From Smittium mucronatum (taxonomy: Eukaryota > Kickxellomycota > Harpellomycetes > Harpellales > Legeriomycetaceae), in the NCBI GenBank assembly GCA_001953115.1, contig LSSL01002030.1, positions 1-32,174 of the forward strand: a DNA stretch of 32,174 nucleotides, read 5' to 3'. Shown here one piece after another: positions 1 to 32,174 of this stretch. The position numbers were made by a program, and so were the translations under genes. How positions within the stretch are numbered: the first letter of the stretch is position 1; every line of letters starts with the position of its first letter. Under the pieces are notes generated by a model that did no database searches, was not told the origin of the DNA, and was given only the letters and a program-made list of their open reading frames with translations.

Positions 1-64
1 TAGTGGAGACAGCGCACAGCGTTGCACTATTCTTGGTTGGGAGTAGTGGAGATAGCGCACAGCG
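1..64 (+). repeat. Partial tandem duplication, period 43 bp, in copy A
   Basis: A 21-bp block beginning TAGTGGAGA and ending GCGCACAGCG occurs at 1-21 and again at 44-64 with a single C/T difference. Copy C has this block once. Copy A therefore carries at least a partial extra unit at its left side, and more units may lie before the window. Confidence 0.75.
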
Positions 65-566
65 ATTCGGAGGACAGCGATTCCAGAGGAGAACCATCTA
101 GAAACAGGAGGAACCGATCGTTTAGCACAGCTGAGACATAGTCTAGTGCGCAAGTCCAGCGTTAGACAGTCAGACGGATCTTAGCGTCTAACAGCTATTT
201 GTAGGAAAGCCATGTAGATCAATCCCACGTTTGGGTAGGAGCCTAATTTTATTAATCCTGTTAGAAGTAGGCACTGACTAGGAGCTCAATAGCTTCAATG
301 AACAACAGTTCATTGACAAAGAGCTTAATTCATGACTGCACGTAACCTCAGTCATCCAGCCTACTTGAAGCAATGCCAGGGGGGGTCTTTCGGTTGGTAG
401 ATTGAACCATTTTCCCGTAGGTACGCAGTCGGTAGTCCGGCAGAGGAGCTTATTGTAGTTAGGATAATAGTCTTTTCTATACGTCTTTTTCTTTTTTTCA
501 AATTTTTTTAGTATAGTTTTTAATGACGTTATCTTACAATAAAATTCCGTGATACAAAAAAAAAAA
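1..566 (+). mobile_element. Retroposon copy A (5' end off window), poly(A)-tailed
   Basis: This GC-richer block matches copy C (31772-32174) closely and, in reverse complement, the more decayed copy B (5875-6485). Shared landmarks in order are CTATTCTTGGTTGG, the GCGCACAGCGATTCGGAGGA stretch, ATTTTATTAATCCTGTTAGAAG, GGAGCTCA..AGCTTCAATGAAC, and GGGGTCTTTCGGTTG. The 3' end carries AATAAA at 538-543 followed by 11 A at 556-566, as expected of a polyadenylated, reverse-transcribed RNA. The ribozyme-bearing 5' end seen in copy C would lie before position 1. The reading frame present in copy C is interrupted here by TAG and has no ATG at the equivalent place, so this copy looks non-coding. No LTR, tRNA promoter or reverse transcriptase is visible. 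Confidence 0.75.
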
Positions 567-5874: not shown

Positions 5875-6485
5875 CTTTTTTTTTATCAATGAATTTTATT
5901 ACATTTCAAGATAAAGCCATCGAAATAATTCTAAAAAAATAAGAAAAAAGGAAAAGATGGTGTGGGAAAAAATATTTTATCAATTAAAATAAGCGCCTAT
6001 GTCTGACTAATGGCTGTGTAACTACGGGAAAAAGGTGCAATATAGCAACCGAAAGACCCCCTACTGGCATTGCTTCAATTTTGTGTATTACTGAAGTCAG
6101 ATGCAGTCAAAAATTAAGCTCTTTTTAAATAAGAAATAGTTCATCGAAGCTGTTGATATCCTATTCATTATCTAATTTTAAAAGGATTAATAAAGTTGGA
6201 TTCCTACCTAAACTTGGGTTTGATCGACATGGTTTTCCCAAAAATAGCTATTAGAAACTGAGAACGGATTGGCTGTCGGAAGCTGGTGTTGTATACTAGA
6301 AAATGTATTAGAATGTGCTAAACAATAGCTTCGTCACATTTCTAGATGACTCTCTTATTTAGTCTCTGTTTTAACTACTCCCAACCAAGAAAAGACAAAG
6401 CTGAATTATTTTTAGAGTATTATACTTCGAAAAATTCAATATTAGGCCCCAAAACCATGTCAAGTTATATCAATATTGGGGGATG
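5875..6485 (-). mobile_element. Retroposon copy B, full-length but decayed, minus orientation
   Basis: Read on the minus strand, this copy runs from a diverged HDV-like 5' region (P1 strand starting at 6482) through the landmarks shared with A and C to a poly(A) tail. AATAAA is at 5900-5895 and nine A at 5884-5876. It is flanked by a 9-bp direct repeat, so it appears to be one complete insertion of about 0.6 kb, which sets the size of the family. Compared with A and C it has many substitutions toward A/T, several at former CpG sites. In the 5' region the CCCC/GGGG core of P1 and the TTCG loop of P4 remain, but P2 and most of P4 are broken and the expected catalytic C is T, so it should be inactive. 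Confidence 0.75.
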
Positions 6486-11720: not shown

Positions 11721-12548
11721 TTATGAAGCTGTTACAGTTCGAGTGGTTGTAAATGTCGAAAAAGATATAAAACTTTCGATAAGTGTGACAGAAGTTAAAT
11801 TAACGGTTCTTGGTGCTAGTGTAGTAGTAGTAGTGACTGTATCAGTCTCAGTTGTAGTATCAGGGGTTTCAACAGTTGTTACTGTATTTGTAACAGGGTC
11901 TTGGGTAAATGTAGAGACAGTTGTTGTGGTAACTGTTTGAGGATCTGCAGTAGATATTTGAGTGGTAGTTGCAGTTGTAGTAGTAGTGGCAGTGATAGGG
12001 TCAGGAGTTTCTGTCTCTGTAAGCGTGCTAGTTGATGGATCAGGGGTAAAGGTAGAGATTGAGGTTGTGGTTGTGGTAATTGGATCTGCTTCAATCGTCT
12101 CAGTAGTGGTTGCTGTTACGAAATCGGTCACAGGATCTTTGGTAGATGTTACGGTTACTACTGATAATGTGATGGTATCTATAACAATAGATGTTACCAA
12201 AATAGGAACAGCCGTAGTTGTTTGTGTGACAGTTTCAGCAGGTTGGGTTTCAGTGAAACTTACTGTGACCGTTTCTTGTTCCAACGTAACTGTTGTTGTG
12301 ACGGTATCAGCCGCGCTTGATGTTGATGCATCATCAAAAAGAGTAACCCCTCCTATGTTGTTAATAGATACCGCAGAAGAAGCTCTAAATTGGTCGGGTA
12401 CAAAAAATGGATCAACTGGTCGTGGAGGTGGAGGTGGCATCCAATTTTGCCTTTTCGCCAATTTTTTTTTTTCAACTGAATCAGAGAGAGAAGATGCTGT
12501 AAACAGTAGAGATGTGATTCCTAATAAAATAAGAGTTCTTTTGCACAT
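11721..12548 (-). CDS. Secreted Thr/Ser-rich mucin-like surface protein
   Basis: This is a single-exon 275-residue frame with an ATG start. Residues 1-22 form a classical signal peptide (basic MCKR, then a hydrophobic core ILLGITSLLF). A Lys/Arg cluster ending AKR at about 31-33 resembles a Kex2-type propeptide site. PPPPPRP follows at about 38-44, then a short Asn/Gly-containing region. From about residue 78 to the end it is almost wholly Thr/Ser/Val with spaced D-P-x-T units (DPVT, DPIT, DPST, DPQT), a pattern typical of heavily O-glycosylated fungal wall or adhesion proteins. I see no transmembrane segment, GPI signal or catalytic domain. Base composition is much less AT-rich than the surrounding desert. 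It is the only supported gene between 0.6 and 21 kb. The function is inferred from composition; no family was recognised. Confidence 0.85.
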   Translation of the reverse strand: MCKRTLILLGITSLLFTASSLSDSVEKKKLAKRQNWMPPPPPRPVDPFFVPDQFRASSAVSINNIGGVTLFDDASTSSAADTVTTTVTLEQETVTVSFTETQPAETVTQTTTAVPILVTSIVIDTITLSVVTVTSTKDPVTDFVTATTTETIEADPITTTTTSISTFTPDPSTSTLTETETPDPITATTTTTATTTQISTADPQTVTTTTVSTFTQDPVTNTVTTVETPDTTTETDTVTTTTTLAPRTVNLTSVTLIESFISFSTFTTTRTVTAS

Positions 12549-13850
12549 TGTTGAAGAGACTAAAAATTCTAAAATATAATAATAAATGGATTGTTTTATT
12601 TAAAATCACTCTTTCTAAAAGAAGATAATTGAATATTAAAAATCCCAATAAATATTAGTGGATTCTTGCGATATATATAGAAAGTTAGATGTGTTAAGGA
12701 AAGTATAAAATAATAAACGAGGAATTAAAGGGTATTTATACCAAATTATAAAACCAAGATTAAAATAGATTAAAAATGATGGAAAATAATAATTCTTTGA
12801 TTATATATTCAGGATCAACATGACATCTTTTGTAAAATAAAACAATATAAATCAAAAAAAAAAAGAGGGCGTTTGAATCTCATGATATATTTCTAGTCCT
12901 ATAAATAAACTGGTTTACAAGATAAACATTAAAAAGCCACCAGAATCATAAGGTAGATGGAATGATCATAAAAAAAAGAAATTATAATCATAAGAATGCC
13001 AATTTATTTTTTTTAACAATTATAAAAACGTCATTTGAAACCCCCAATATAAAGAAATACCAAAACACCGGATGATTTTTTATTTCAAAAAGAAATCTAT
13101 GTCATTAATTGTTAAGACGATATTAAATAACAGCTGATTATTATAGACTTTTTATGATTGGTCCTTGATATGCACCTCCAATAATTCATATGACGCTCTT
13201 GGCATATGCCTAAATACTATAAAATCACAGTATACACTAACATTTTGAGAACAGGGATAAAATGATGACATTGATTATTTGGTCAATGCCACTTGACTTG
13301 AATCAGTTAAAGTAACTGGTTTAATTCTGGTGTTAGCAATATTATATCACCAACAACGTGCAAAAAAGGGTTGGGGTTTAATAAAAAAACTAATTGGGTA
13401 GTATGATATTAAATAATGTTGACAAAAATCAAAAAATATGGAAATAAGAAAAAAAACTAGTTAGTAGTTGAATAAGATTAGCAGAAAATAAGTCACATAT
13501 TTAACTTTAACGATGTATTAATAATAATTAAAATACACACCAATAAAATTTAATAAGGATCATAATGCAAAATCTATGTACTTTAACAAGTAACACCCAC
13601 CAAAAATATATGTTATCGGGCCGGGGTTTTTCTTTCTGGAAAGCCTTATGATTATTTTTATTAAACACATTAAATAGCAGTAATTAGTTTTATGTGACAA
13701 TGCTAAAGAGCCTTAATCAAGTGAAGTAGAGTTGTACCCATTATCGTTAAAGATAGCATCGAGTTATCATCCCCATAGTCGTTGAAAATCTGAAGTATTA
13801 ATAAAACCCCCTTAATGGCTTGAGAAACATATATATATATATATGACCTA
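12549..13850. promoter_or_regulatory. Upstream region of the secreted-protein gene
   Basis: This sequence lies 5' of the minus-strand gene and has fewer homopolymer runs than the desert beyond it. It includes a perfect 10-bp palindrome GGCATATGCC at 13201-13210 and a GC-rich patch around 13618-13626. A TA microsatellite ends it near 13830-13846. I could not define a TATA box, an exon or a second gene. The regulatory role is inferred only from position. Confidence 0.25.
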
Positions 13851-23356: not shown

Positions 23357-24428
23357 TTAGCGGATAAAATAACATATTGGGTTTTGGGAGACTCTAACCT
23401 TATCATGGGTATATATGGGCATTGACCTCCTATGAGCCTTGAAATCGGAGCTTTTGATTGGTGGAGGGGCAGTAATTTTGGGTGCAGTCATTCCATACAT
23501 ATCTGAATTGAAAATCACTTTACTTTTGGTTTTCGCCAGTTGTATCTTGGGATTGTTAGCACTTTCCTGGTGCAATGATAGAATCTCGTTTTGTATGTTG
23601 TATTGTTTGTTTGTATGTGATCTTGTTGGCTGCTGTAGGTAATACATTGAAGATTGGGTGGGTTCTTTGGAAATACTAGTTCTATTTTTTAAAACCGATC
23701 CTAATCTTTCATTATATTGCTCTGTTTCCGCGTTTTTTAACCCCGTAGAGGACAAATTTGAAGGATTCGAGCTTTCATATCCTTTTATTATATTTGCTAC
23801 AAAGTCTAAATCCGAACATTCAATTCTCAAATCGAAATCCTAATGTATCAAAAAACACATTACCTTAAAAATGTAATTAAAAAACTATGAATTTCAAATA
23901 AATAACATCCAAGCATTATCATATCTGTAAATTAATTACCAGCAAGAAAAGAAATTGTTTTTCCATCAAATTCACCTCTGGGATAGAAAACATGCTTGAA
24001 TACTTTGCCCAGTATTTGTTCTTTGGAGATGCATCATTTAAATATTTTCCTGCTATTATTAGAGATGCTAGAAATATTCTATGATATGTGCACTCTATTC
24101 CTTTTGCGCCTGGCGGTAATTTATATTTAAGTCTGCTCAGATATACAAGTGTGCAAATCAATGTCCCAATTTGAACCTTAGATTTAATTACTAAATTTGA
24201 TATGAACTTATTTAACGAAATGAGAGCTGATTGATCCTCCTCAGTTTTAAACCAAGATTTTTGAGAAGTGGGGCTAGGATCTCTGTATTCCCCAAGATTG
24301 CTGAGATTCTGGCTGTCTTTTTTACATTTTATCACTCCTTTAGTGAAGATTGTTATAGTATTTATTATATCTGGAGTGATTGGCCCTTTGAGGACGTCCA
24401 TGGTTTGATCTTTCAGTTCCCAAACCAT
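23357..24428 (-). CDS. PCL/Pas1-family cyclin (Pho85-type CDK partner)
   Basis: There are two exons, 24428-23940 and 23839-23357, joined by a 100-nt phase-0 intron (GTAATT..ATTAG); the product is 323 residues. The junction restores FLFLL-DFDLRIE, a diagnostic stretch of fungal PCL cyclins. The cyclin box spans about residues 68-170: YLSRLKYKLPP (96-106), HRIFLASLIIAGKYLND (116-132), the SPKNKYWAKY segment (134-143) and EVNLMEKQFLFLL (151-163). Known Pcl1/Pcl2/Pas1 cyclins activate Pho85-type kinases in G1 control, polarity and related signalling; this role is inferred from the family. The C-terminal 150 residues are Ser/Asn/Thr-rich and unstructured, with no other domain. The start is the first ATG and leaves a usual-length N-terminal extension. 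The neighbour downstream on the same strand is the unknown Lys/Asn-rich gene; no functional link is evident. Confidence 0.88.
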
Positions 24429-25722
24429 ATTATAATAATATGGAGATTCTCTTGTTTTCTATGAATTTGCTGAAACTAACAACCTTTATTACTAAAACTA
24501 GAGTATTAATTAGAGAAAATATATAGCTTTCTTTTTTCTAAAATAATAAAAGGATTTAGATATGCAATTTTTATATATTGTGTTACAAATGCTATTTCAA
24601 ATAATAATTTTGATCAATATCATCAATACGGTATTTTTGAAAAAGATTTTTTTTTTTAAAGAGTATGTAGATATGAAAGCTGAGAAGAGAATTCAGTGAC
24701 AATTTATTTAAAAAAAACTACAAATGTCTTTTGTAACCAAAGTATCAAATATCCATAGAATATTTATGGACCCTTTTAGAACTATATCAAAAATGTGATG
24801 CCAATGAACTCGTTGCATTATTTCTTTATACAAAGTCAGAAAATCAGTTTTTTGGTTCTAAAATATAAATCGGGCCCCCAATTTTTTATCTGTCATAGTA
24901 ATTTTTTTTTTAAATGTGCTTTCTCGGCTATTCTCGGTGCAGAGAGACCATTTAATTGATGATTGTTTAAAGGCTATGCAGATCTTTTTTAAAAAAATCA
25001 TAGATACCAACTTTATCATGAATATCATGGGTTTATGCTATGATTTCTCATGACATAGATTATTATCAAAATCTATCTAGATATGAGTGAACCATTTCGA
25101 TCTCGATCTAGACTTGACGGAGTGTTTTCTCCTGCTTTCACTATTTGCTATTTTAATTATTGTTTTGTTATCATATTTCGTTTAAAAAAAGTGATAACCC
25201 GATATTATCAATATCGATTTTACATAAATAAAATAAAAATAGGTCTTAAGAAAATCTAGATTGTCTAATAACTAAAACACTGTTATTTGAAGCCTCTAAT
25301 TGGACTGATATCTAGACTTTTTTGGGTCTGGGGTAAAAAAGAGGCTCTCAATTTTTAATCAATGTATCCATTTTGTTTAAATATCAAAGTAGATTGGTCA
25401 AAAATAAAAAATCATTCTCCTACTGAAATGAGTAAATGTTCAGATAAGTAACTGTGAACCTTACGCTTTTAGAGCTGAAGGTTATTAACCAGCTGAGAAT
25501 TTTGGGTCAATTAACAAACGTATCTATTGTATGAACACTCAATACTGGATAGATTACGATTATCAAAGAGAAATCAATCATTTTTCTTAAATATTAGACA
25601 TGGAATTTTTTTGGGCTACGGAAATTTTTAAAGGGAAAAGGCTTTGAAAGTCCAGACAAGATTTAAAATTTTACTTCACCTTTTTAATACTTGTTCAATT
25701 TCGAGATTTTTAATTTTACCTA
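24429..25722. other. Intergenic region 5' of the cyclin, no gene seen
   Basis: No open frame of note is present. A loose inverted pair (AGCCTCTAATTGG near 25291 and AGAGGCTCTCAATTTT near 25341) may be a small hairpin or element relic. Promoter elements of the cyclin could not be identified. Confidence 0.4.
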
Positions 25723-27486: not shown

Positions 27487-30325
27487 TTATATAGGAGGCA
27501 GAGGTGTCCGGCATACAGGACATTCCAGCTTTATTCTCATCCACTATTAATTTAAGTTAATAAAATTTAAAATCAAGACTAAAAAAAATCTTTCAAAATA
27601 ATTATAAATTCTTACCTCATCCAAACATGAAGTATGAAAAATATGGTGGCAAGGAGTAACCATATATGAAGCTCTTCCAATCAATCCGGACCTTGATTCT
27701 GTTTCGACTTGAAGCATACAGATTGCGCATCTCTTACTGGTCACACTTACCGCCGATTCTTGACCCATATCATCATTTTCATTTATTGGACTTGGATTGT
27801 GTATACCTAACCCAGAACTAGAACTATCTCTACGGTCTGTCGAATTTGTTTCTTCGTCGTTTCTGGAAACAAATGGGTGATAGTTGTACGTTTCAGGGAA
27901 AAGCTATAAATTTAATGATGTAAACTGTAAGCTTTTTTATAGACTAAATTAACGAGAAATAGTTACGCTATTTGGTAAGAAAAATCTAGGCCCGAATGAT
28001 TCTTGTAGCAACAATAGAGTCACTTGGAAAAAAACCCACACAATCAGCACAAACACAAGATTACTTTTCTTAATATAAAAAATATTCTCGGGGCACAAAA
28101 AAATATCTATAATAATAAAAAATAATTAATTTGAAAAAAAAAAAAAGATATAACTTTAAATTAAGTAGTTCATTTGATTACATGCTGGATACATAAGTCT
28201 GGTTATACTTGATGATATTATGAATTCGCTAATTGAGGTAGGTAAAAATAATTCAAATGAATTAAATTTTATGAACGTTTAACAGAATAAATGTAGTGAT
28301 TTTTTTTACATTGTTAGACCTTTGCTAGTTCCCCTAATTATATTTCGAATGATTTGGGGAACCCACATCGAGTAAATTAGGAAAAGTATTCCAAAGAGCA
28401 AGTATAGCAAGATCGGAGACTGGCTAGTTGTGTACCAATACAAAAAAAACATTCCGAATATTAAACATGCATCTACAATTCAAATAAAAAGCAATAATTG
28501 AAAATTGAAAAAAAAAAAAGTATTAATATAGAAAAAAATTAGATTGTTTTACTCACAAAATATAAAATATATATTATTTTTGCTGTCAGATCGATCTCCG
28601 TTAGAGGAAGACTCTGCTCTTTGAGAATCACTTATTGAAACCAAATATCGAAGTCCATATATTGAAAGTGAAACAAACATAAAAAATGCTGGAATACTCA
28701 AAGGTATGAAAAGTCTCCCTATTTTCGATGAAAAATAATTAGACGGTTAATAATAAGAATAGCATAACGAATTTTAAATAAATAGAATAAGGATTACTCA
28801 TTGAAATTGCAACTGAAAACAATATTAAACAGATATAACTATCCTGTAAGGAGTACAATCCGATTGTATAAACAGATATTTTTGAGGAAACCTAAAGCAA
28901 AATATGAAACCAGATATAGTAATGGAATAAAAATGGAAAATATTTATTTATTATGCTTAAATGATTAGTTACCGATGGAGTGGGAGAGTAATCTATCTGT
29001 CTCACAAATGTAATCACTTGTATGAGAGAAATCTAGTAAATAAATGGATAAATTTGAAAAATCAAAAGTTAATAATAAAATGTCTTTGTAAAATCAAGAA
29101 ATATGCAGTATTACGATTGAAAATAAGAATGAGGCATATTTGGCCTTCGTTTCGTAAACTTGAATTTTGATTCCTTCCAATGGCTCGGTAGAGTTATTTT
29201 TTTTTGTAGTGAGAACAACATTACAGTTTTGAGAAAAAACTAAAAGATCCAAATCCATTTTTGGAGGCCTTGACATGCTTTTACCAGTTGGATTCTCTAA
29301 CTCTTTTTCAATATCACTCATGTCATCAGATGTAAAGTTTTGACCCACTGGAATGACTTTTCCCAATAAAAAATACTCACAATCTTTATTGGAATCTATT
29401 TTTTTTTTTTCAATAAATCAATAAATTCTTAACTTTAAAACAAATAGAATTGTGAAGTTGAAAACTATAATACCTTCTTCAAGGACCGCATCGTTGAATG
29501 TTTTATTATAATGGTCAATTATAATAGCTCTAGAGTCATTAAAGGTTTTAGAATCTGGCATAATGCTAAGAAGTTTCGAAGGGATCCCAAGATTTTTTTC
29601 ATTATATCCGTACAATATAAATGTTCCATTTTTTTGCCAGTGAATTCCCTCGAATTTTAATAATTCGTTATTACTTTCATTTGTTATCTTGAAAAATCCC
29701 TATAAGATTGAAAATTTTAAAAATTAGCAGAAGAACCAAATAAATGGATTAATTGAACTACCTCTATTAAGCTAGTATTAGAAACCGTAGTCTTAGAATC
29801 TTTGATGTAAATAAACAATGAACCATTATCATCATTCCGAATTCTATGGTAACCAGGTGGTAAAGTGCCGTTATACCATATAGTTTTTTCATCTGCATTT
29901 TTGGCGATAAAATTTCCTAATAAAAAAATATGTAAGATTAATCTTTAGGAATATATAGTATTTTTATTTATAGATACCATTAGCTATTCCGGATATATTA
30001 TGGTAAAAAACCCCGTAATTATCTAAATCTCCTGGATCAAACATTTTCGAGAATTCTTGTTTGGCAAATTTGGGCCAGCTCTAAGTTTTCAAAACGGAAA
30101 ATTAGGGTACAAATTCTGGGGTTTTTTTAACATAGATCATTATAAATGAAAAATCTTTACATCAATTGAAGAATTAGTGAAAATGGAATCCGATAAGCTT
30201 TTAAAATAATCCTTCCGGAATTTATCGGTTATTTTTGATTTTGGTGCTTTCGAATCGTCAGTAAAAATTAGGATCCATAGCAAAAAAATAAGTAAAAGGA
30301 GTCTGAAAGAAGACGACAATTCCAT
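27487..30325 (-). CDS. DSC1: DSC E3 ubiquitin ligase subunit 1 / Tul1, RING-H2 membrane ligase, 13 exons
   Basis: Exons: 30325-30161, 30080-29978, 29916-29762, 29699-29474, 29395-29115, 29032-28973, 28891-28798, 28718-28557, 28472-28310, 28228-28182, 28106-27967, 27903-27616, 27543-27487. They sum to 1941 nt, 646 residues, with all phases matching. An N-terminal hydrophobic segment (about 8-21) leads into a luminal domain to about 295 (YGVFYHNISG, LPPGYHR). Seven membrane segments follow. Family motifs are TPSVSKIS at the exon 6/7 junction, MWVPQIIRNIIRGT in exon 9, and GPRFFLP in exon 11. The C-terminal RING-H2 has C591, C594, C617, H619, H622, C625, C636, C639. Dsc1/Tul1 is the ligase of the Golgi/endosomal Dsc complex, which ubiquitinates membrane proteins and in fission yeast activates SREBP; the role here is inferred. 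All 12 acceptors are TAG; introns are 61-84 nt. Confidence 0.93.
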
Positions 30326-31771: not shown

Positions 31772-31852
31772 CCCCTAAGAGTGAAATACCTTGCCGTGGT
31801 TTAGGGGATTAATAGTGTACTTTTCGAAGTACACTAGATCAAAATTTCACTC
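31772..31852 (+). ncRNA. HDV-like self-cleaving ribozyme candidate at 5' end of copy C
   Basis: The nested double-pseudoknot order of HDV ribozymes is met exactly. P1 is 772-778 with 801-807 (7 bp CCCCTAA/TTAGGGG). P2 is 779-787 with 844-852 (9 bp GAGTGAAAT/ATTTCACTC). P3 is 788-790 with 798-800 (3 bp) with 7-nt L3 TTGCCGT. P4 is 813-822 with 827-836 (10 bp) closed by TTCG. J4/2 ends C840-A-A-A directly before P2', fitting the catalytic C-N-R-A strand. (Numbers are the last three digits of 31xxx.) Cleavage would fall just before C772, the boundary of the repeat. Deviations from the classical model are C rather than G at +1 and no Watson-Crick P1.1. Copy B aligns across the whole region without gaps in P1, P3, L3 and the P4 loop. 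The call rests on hand folding. Confidence 0.6.
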
Positions 31853-31877
31853 AGAGTTGTACTATTCTTGGTTGGTA

Positions 31878-32027
31878 ATGGTGGAGACAGCGCACAGCGA
31901 TTCGGAGGACAGCGATTTCAGAGAAAGACCATCTCGAAACAGGGGGAACCGATCGTTTAGCACAGCTGAGACATATCATAGTGTCACAATTCCAGTGTTC
32001 GGCAGTCAAACTGATCTCAGCTTCTAA
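31878..32027 (+). pseudogene. Short open frame in copy C, possible relic of a parental ORF1
   Basis: ATG to TAA encodes 49 residues, with the acidic stretch HSDSEDSD followed by a basic RNRGNRSFS segment. Copy A keeps most of the same amino-acid pattern (AHSDSEDSD, PSRNR, NRSFSTAET) but lacks the ATG and has an in-frame TAG, so the frame is not maintained. It may be the truncated beginning of the coding region of an autonomous parent element, as seen in LINE-derived short retroposons. No known domain is seen. Confidence 0.35.
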
Positions 32028-32174
32028 CAGCTATTTTTAGGGAAGCCATGTATATCAAACCCACGTTTGGATAGGATTCTAATTTTATTAATCCTGTTAG
32101 AAGTAGTCTCTAAATAGGAGCTCAGTAGCTTCAATGAACTATTTTCCATTGACAAAGAGCTTAATTCTTGACTG

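Follow-up and report, generated by a model that had tools for sequence, protein, structure and literature searches.

Positions 31772-31852 of a 32,174-nucleotide contig of the fungus Smittium mucronatum (hereafter the window) raise the question of whether the first nucleotides of a dispersed, poly(A)-tailed element can fold as a self-cleaving ribozyme of the HDV class, and what such a fold would do at that place. The 81 nt segment has the arrangement of the HDV nested double pseudoknot, running P1, P2, P3, L3, P3′, P1′, P4, J4/2 and P2′ (Table 1). An original prediction, made from the letters of the window, had listed P1, a 9 bp P2, a 3 bp P3, a 7 nt L3, a UUCG-capped 10 bp P4 and CAAA, and each of these was found where it had been placed. 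The minimum-energy fold of the window copy, computed without pseudoknots, consists of P2, P4 and an alternative small hairpin; such a departure from the full layout is to be expected of a folding program unable to represent crossing helices.

Table 1. Parts of the HDV-like fold and copies of the element located in the window (fold written as RNA).
Feature	Positions	Strand	Remarks
P1, 5′ strand CCCCUAA	31772..31778	+	predicted cleavage just before 31772; +1 is C
J1/2, 2 nt, GA in the family	31779..31780	+	can extend P2 in the window copy
P2, 5′ strand GUGAAAU	31781..31787	+	
P3, 5′ strand ACC	31788..31790	+	
L3, UUGCCGU, 7 nt	31791..31797	+	U20 and G25 lie within
P3, 3′ strand GGU	31798..31800	+	runs straight into P1′
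P1, 3′ strand UUAGGGG	31801..31807	+	
J1.1/4, AUUAA here, CUUAA in the family	31808..31812	+	candidate P1.1 pair G22-C37 lost in the window copy
P4 hairpin, UAGUGUACUU-UUCG-AAGUACACUA, 10 bp	31813..31836	+	helix kept with other letters in subfamily B
J4/2, GAUCAAA here, GA-C68-Y-A-A-A in the family	31837..31843	+	U at 31839, C at 31840
P2, 3′ strand AUUUCAC	31844..31850	+	
5′ 403 nt of a SINE-like retroposon copy	31772..32174	+	ends with the contig
3′ part of another family copy, position 79 to poly(A)	15..564	+	poly(A) begins near 556, preceded by AATAAA at 538-543
Old, degraded relative of full length (70% identity)	5876..6482	-	P1 6/7, P2 1/7, P3 2/3 and P4 9/10 pairs; CUAAA kept

The frequency of such an arrangement in comparable sequence was measured with a descriptor that called for a 7 bp P1, a P2 of 6-10 bp, a 3 bp P3, an L3 of 5-9 nt, P3′ abutting P1′, a P4 of at least 4 bp and C-N-R-A no more than 1 nt from P2′; matches were scored crudely by their pairing. 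As the structure was already known when the descriptor was drawn up, the test is not blind. The window copy scored 70 and the family consensus 65, while the best other place on the + strand of the window reached 47. Dinucleotide-shuffled windows (200) yielded 0.315 matches each on average, the highest score being 51, and 3000 dinucleotide shuffles of the 403 nt element yielded one match (score 45). When both strands of 244,407 bases of loci were scanned, 82 family matches were recovered together with 8 others, the best of which scored 42.

The element that carries the fold is about 618 bp long when complete, non-coding and poly(A)-tailed, with an AATAAA of its own. Its length up to the poly(A) is 617-621 nt in 10 of 12 complete copies, and 623 and 659 nt in the other two. 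The 618 nt copy L036 has no between-stop frame longer than 68 aa, carries AATAAA at 601 and poly(A) from 619, and contains runs of T5-T7 within 549-584, ahead of the poly(A). Across the genome searched (73.8 Mb in 2957 contigs; GC of the window, 25%), the 5′ core of the family gave 886 matches with up to 3 mismatches and the tail 1504 with up to 2, reversed controls giving 0 in both cases; more tail than core matches are what 5′ truncation would produce, with the proviso that the two mismatch thresholds are unequal. The poly(A) of the copy at 31772 is out of view because the contig stops at 32174, and the tail is visible in other copies. The family is thus short, ORF-less, poly(A)-tailed, flanked by target-site duplications and present in many copies, which are the traits of SINE-like non-LTR elements.

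A pol III origin was considered and rejected, as ARAGORN found no tRNA gene in L036, L064 or L037, and the three loci with complete copies had no Rfam match to a tRNA-, 5S- or 7SL-like head. The lack of an ORF together with an internal poly(A) signal fits a poly(A) element of pol II type that a LINE mobilises in trans. A search for a LINE partner with the RVT_1 profile gave at least 151 matches among those listed, with 150 of 605 candidates scored. One locus, L133 (G000:C217:900-3300), is the upstream part of a LINE-like element and has a single frame whose start looks endonuclease-like by eye; its 5′ flank is GC-poor with repeated GGCGC-type motifs. No HDV descriptor match was found in the 5′ flank of this endonuclease-RT frame, and four stretches downstream of RT frames (L134-L137), putatively LINE 3′ ends, resembled the SINE only weakly and mostly in T-rich sequence (best E 0.036). 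Viral contigs contained no exact match to the 18 nt core.

Several further observations concern the window and the distribution of the element. The contig begins and ends (window positions 1-564 and 31772-32174) inside copies of this one element, and among the listed 5′-core matches at least 24 lie within 600 nt of the first base of a contig: the element breaks the assembly. At L066:1459-1536 (- strand) the ribozyme-like segment is intact through P2′ and is followed by unrelated sequence, so that this copy may be truncated, recombined, or part of an element that has only the ribozyme in common. Elsewhere in the window, a cyclin exon of the PHO80/PCL type (23919-24458, - strand; Pfam Cyclin_N and Cyclin) has its closest named relatives in the Harpellales Smittium megazygosporum (60% identity) and S. 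simulii (58%). A RING-finger exon (27547-27903, - strand) has its best Pfam matches below or near the cut-offs, and a Thr/Ser-rich frame of 292 aa (11721-12599, - strand), with no Pfam match, looks like a secreted or wall protein.

The 5′ boundary of the inserted sequence was then delineated from target-site duplications. Twelve complete copies were listed, of which stricter filters left 9 for scoring (L081, L088 and L099 were set aside). In 6 of the 9, the duplication ends at -1, one base before C1, with 15/15 matching positions in L036 and L037, 16/16 in L064, 14/15 in L022, 8/8 in L012 and 13/16 in L056; duplication scores were 7-16, as compared with a maximum of 6 across 1614 mismatched-flank controls. 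The remaining three scored copies (L105, L084, L027) had no convincing duplication. Outside the scored set, the duplication of L088 ends 2 nt off, within a simple repeat, and L099 has none. Upstream of the element, from -20 to -1, no position has the same base in more than 51 of 103 copies. Duplications that end at -1 indicate that the inserted sequence begins at the very nucleotide named +1 by the HDV model. The claim that the 5′ end of the fold is also the start of a poly(A)-tailed retroposon is borne out by these data, and the repeat boundary, which the original prediction had proposed to look for well upstream as evidence against itself, lies at 31772.

Conservation of the fold was assessed in an alignment of 88 of 115 distinct copies, from which copies were dropped if they contained N, were too short, started beyond position 20 or were identical in 88 nt. 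Most of the aligned copies had been chosen for their resemblance to the 5′ region, a choice that makes conservation look higher. The family layout in these 88 copies comprises a P1 of 7 bp, a J1/2 of 2 nt, a P2 of 7 bp, a P3 of 3 bp, an L3 of 7 nt, a P4 of 10 bp and a J4/2 reading G/A-A-C-Y-A-A-A. Of 2375 cells, 96.6% pair, compared with 20-48% when the strands are slid, in a structure derived from the same family. The minimum-energy fold of the consensus without pseudoknots consists of P1, P3 and P4 (-21.7 kcal/mol, z -2.58), and 5 of 200 shuffles folded as low. Within positions 1-80, polymorphisms at a frequency of at least 15% occur at only three sites (66, 69 and 80), all of them unpaired. 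A rank test found no difference in diversity between paired and unpaired positions (p 0.60); mean diversity was lower at paired positions (0.032 vs. 0.049, and 0.024 vs. 0.045 in a set of 26 copies).

At the putative active site, the candidate catalytic cytosine, C68, is present in 85 of 88 copies and is followed by Y-A-A-A. The neighbouring position 69 was rejected as the catalytic base, as it splits between C and U and is C in just 30 of 88. The J4/2 of HDV is C-N-A-A, and that of the family is one A longer. In L3, U20 is invariant (88/88) and G25 nearly so (87/88). A single P1.1 pair, G22-C37, is possible in 80 copies, and A37 is found in 7, the window copy among them.

Measured against its family, the window copy is unusual in several respects. 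Two outer P2 pairs, contributed by U and C at 31851-31852, are private to it; the 9 bp P2 abutting P1 that had been predicted is therefore correct for this copy, whereas in the family P2 has 7 bp and stands 2 nt from P1. Similarly, C-A-A-A does precede P2′ as J4/2, but not in the register conserved by the family, in which C68 is followed by Y-A-A-A; the window copy instead has U-C in place of C-Y at 31839-31840, and U68-C69 recurs in one other of the 88 copies (L029). The absence of a canonical P1.1, counted as a weak point in the prediction, is seen in the window copy, which has A37 in common with six others; in most copies of the family one candidate pair at most could form. With both U68 and A37, the window copy may be a slow or dead ribozyme, and although it has the layout of the ribozyme it is a poor guide to it.

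Covariation among copies, proposed earlier as a check, was weak within the main family: 4 double changes were counted, a number matched by 31 of 500 shuffles, as might be expected of young copies decaying one by one. An older full-length relative in locus L034 led to a sister subfamily, B. A second alignment combined 8 of the 88 copies (subfamily A) with 8 B rows, and was made by sequence alone. The B rows are 6 of 9 B places (C514, C639 and C521 being left out) plus L034 and L142; L145, which has extra letters in its first 40 nt, and the degraded window relative at 6482 were also left out. The B places had been located by similarity to a stretch containing P4 and CUAAA, a choice biased towards conservation of both.

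Between the two consensus sequences, four P4 pairs changed on both sides with pairing maintained (45-64, GC to AU; 48-61, UA to CG; 50-59, CG to UA; 51-58, UA to CG), two more P4 pairs are kept via G-U, and one P2 pair is compensatory (13-78, AU to GC). In the B copies themselves, P4 is paired in 64 of 80 cells as compared with 23-40 when slid, and 2 of 5000 column permutations were as good. Across A and B, 26 cells changed on both sides vs. 13.3 in shuffles (0 of 500 as high), and the covariation score was equalled in 1 of 500; the number of pairs changed (187/500) and of pair types (498/500) was no higher than in shuffles. As these shuffles ignore relatedness among copies, it is the consensus-to-consensus changes that constitute real evidence.

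The other helices behaved differently in subfamily B. P2 is kept in 5 of 7 pairs of the B consensus, and in single B copies it pairs in 29 of 56 cells vs. 34 of 56 when slid by one, with 1088 of 5000 permutations as good. P1 pairs in 36 of 55 cells (34 of 55 in the slid control; 209 of 5000 permutations match) and P3 in 22 of 24 with letters unchanged and hence not covarying; both helices are nearly invariant between A and B. C-U-A-A-A is present in all 8 B copies, as is U20, with G25 in 4 of 8 and G22 in 3 of 8. In single old copies P4 folds no better than shuffles, with the exception of L034 (z -1.9); L142, whose stretch was wrongly delimited, is disregarded in this comparison. The best evidence for the proposed ribozyme fold is the set of compensatory changes in this older subfamily.

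Could the fold be real without being a ribozyme? Structured RNA is often found at the ends of mobile elements, and a conserved hairpin domain might recruit the reverse transcriptase or host proteins, or mark the 5′ end. The weakness of P1.1 would agree with such a role, as would the fact that the strongest covariation lies in P4, which alone also fits a plain hairpin. We consider this explanation unlikely, as the order and lengths of P1, P2, P3, L3 and P4, with C-Y-A-A before P2′, follow the HDV plan with a score that 6.4 Mb of shuffled sequence never reached, and +1 coincides with the first base of the element. A second alternative, which we regard as very improbable, is that an HDV-like ribozyme was formerly active and is now dead in the S. 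mucronatum genome, the C1 start being inherited and the start site set by a promoter. Every core feature is kept in only 44 of the 88 copies; two such features are missing from the window copy, and P2 is gone from the old relative at 6482. Against a dead ribozyme, the 88 copies stay near the consensus at C68, U20 and G25, which is soft evidence given that they were largely chosen by 5′ similarity, and L036, L037 and L064 have recent-looking, mismatch-free duplications of 15-16 bp. That the first 80 nt of the repeat fold in this way by chance is scarcely credible, and is largely refuted by the compensatory changes in subfamily B: Rfam gives no match and AT-rich sequence yields occasional descriptor matches, but the scores of 65-70 stand against a best of 51 in shuffled windows, and the fold coincides with the insertion boundary.

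Taken together, comparison of the copies supports the view that this fungal, poly(A)-tailed retroposon has an HDV-like fold precisely at its 5′ end. The Rfam HDV covariance models, which the original prediction had put forward as a check, did not detect it, with no hit at gathering in the window, nothing HDV-like to E 10 around the site and nothing HDV-like to E 5 in the three loci with complete copies. This does not rule out membership in the class, as earlier HDV descriptors also missed most of the fungal variants (PMC5640933). The C at +1, originally counted as a weak point, is a milder one than it had seemed: a C-G pair at the cleavage site, as here, is typical of the fungal variants (PMC5640933), and several SIDER/NARTc ribozymes of trypanosomatids likewise have C1 at +1 (PMC4035085).

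Three known systems invite comparison. The fungal HDV variants, for which self-cleavage was demonstrated in vitro with examples from Penicillium chrysogenum and Aspergillus niger, are alike in host kingdom; they differ in P4, where a loop-E motif takes the place of part of the helix, and in an additional nucleotide that separates P2 from P3, whereas the present family has a plain 10 bp P4 and a P2 that abuts P3, and the words retrotransposon and transposable are absent from the main text describing them (PMC5640933). R2 ribozymes have a P1 of 6-7 bp, a P2 of at least 5 bp, a catalytic C and, within L3, a conserved G paired with a U (PMC3774820). The 5′-end location, P1, P2 and candidate catalytic C are alike, and U20 and G25 are candidates for the L3 pair; unlike this family, R2 inserts specifically into 28S genes and does so without the short target-site duplications present here (PMC3774820, PMC3414825). 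R2-derived short elements were compared as part of the same group, with no sequence relation shown (PMC3774820, PMC3414825). As a working analogy, the closest known system is that of the trypanosomatid L1Tc/NARTc/SIDER elements, in which poly(A) elements of LINE type and SINE-like kind, high in copy number and with non-autonomous members, begin with an HDV-like fold, C is +1, and the GC pairs of P1 have their C on the 5′ strand (PMC4035085). These elements belong to another kingdom and are likened by layout, not by sequence, and their Pr77 doubles as a promoter (PMC4035085); for the present family, the comparison with LINE-like frames described above yielded no autonomous partner.

We conclude that the first ~80 nt of this SINE-like family very probably constitute an HDV-class self-cleaving ribozyme that would free the element from a longer transcript, the poly(A) RNA then being copied in trans. 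The most likely mechanism, by analogy, is that of other non-LTR-element ribozymes, in which the RNA is cut from a co-transcript, polyadenylated and reverse transcribed elsewhere. The element would be transcribed within a longer RNA from a host promoter, and during transcription its 5′ 80 nt would fold into P1-P2-P3-P4, the fold supported by the comparisons above, with C68 presumably in the active site. Cleavage just before C1 would generate a 2′,3′-cyclic phosphate and leave a 5′-OH on the first nucleotide of the element, and the AATAAA seen in the element, together with the poly(A) machinery of the host, would form the 3′ end. A reverse transcriptase encoded by a LINE and acting in trans would then copy the trimmed poly(A) RNA into a new target, a step suggested by the poly(A), the target-site duplications and the absence of an ORF. 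New copies would thus again start at C1. Self-cleavage, the use of C68, read-through transcription and mobilisation in trans are the steps that we infer.

The release of several non-LTR elements from host transcripts is attributed to HDV-like ribozymes, as documented in animals and trypanosomatids (PMC4035085, PMC3774820). What is new here is an HDV-like ribozyme fold at the 5′ end of a fungal, SINE-like element, the fungal variants not being tied to mobile elements in the main text of their description (PMC5640933). A search of the CC-licensed full-text literature, with subscription papers outside its scope, found no description of HDV-like ribozymes from fungal SINEs or from Harpellales, and putative ribozymes of this kind escape the Rfam models. 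Because it has hundreds of copies in a fungus, sharp insertion boundaries and a covarying subfamily, the element offers a direct way to ask whether a ribozyme or a promoter sets the 5′ end of a SINE. More tentatively, and with slightly less than even confidence, we suggest that the family represents a promoter-less class of fungal SINE whose RNA sets both of its own ends, the 5′ end through an HDV-class ribozyme acting in any read-through transcript and the 3′ end through an internal poly(A) signal. Such a class would be the fungal counterpart, by descent or convergence, of trypanosomatid SIDER/NARTc, with a core that has one P1.1 pair or none and a J4/2 one A longer. If this reading is true, the element would need only to land in transcribed DNA.
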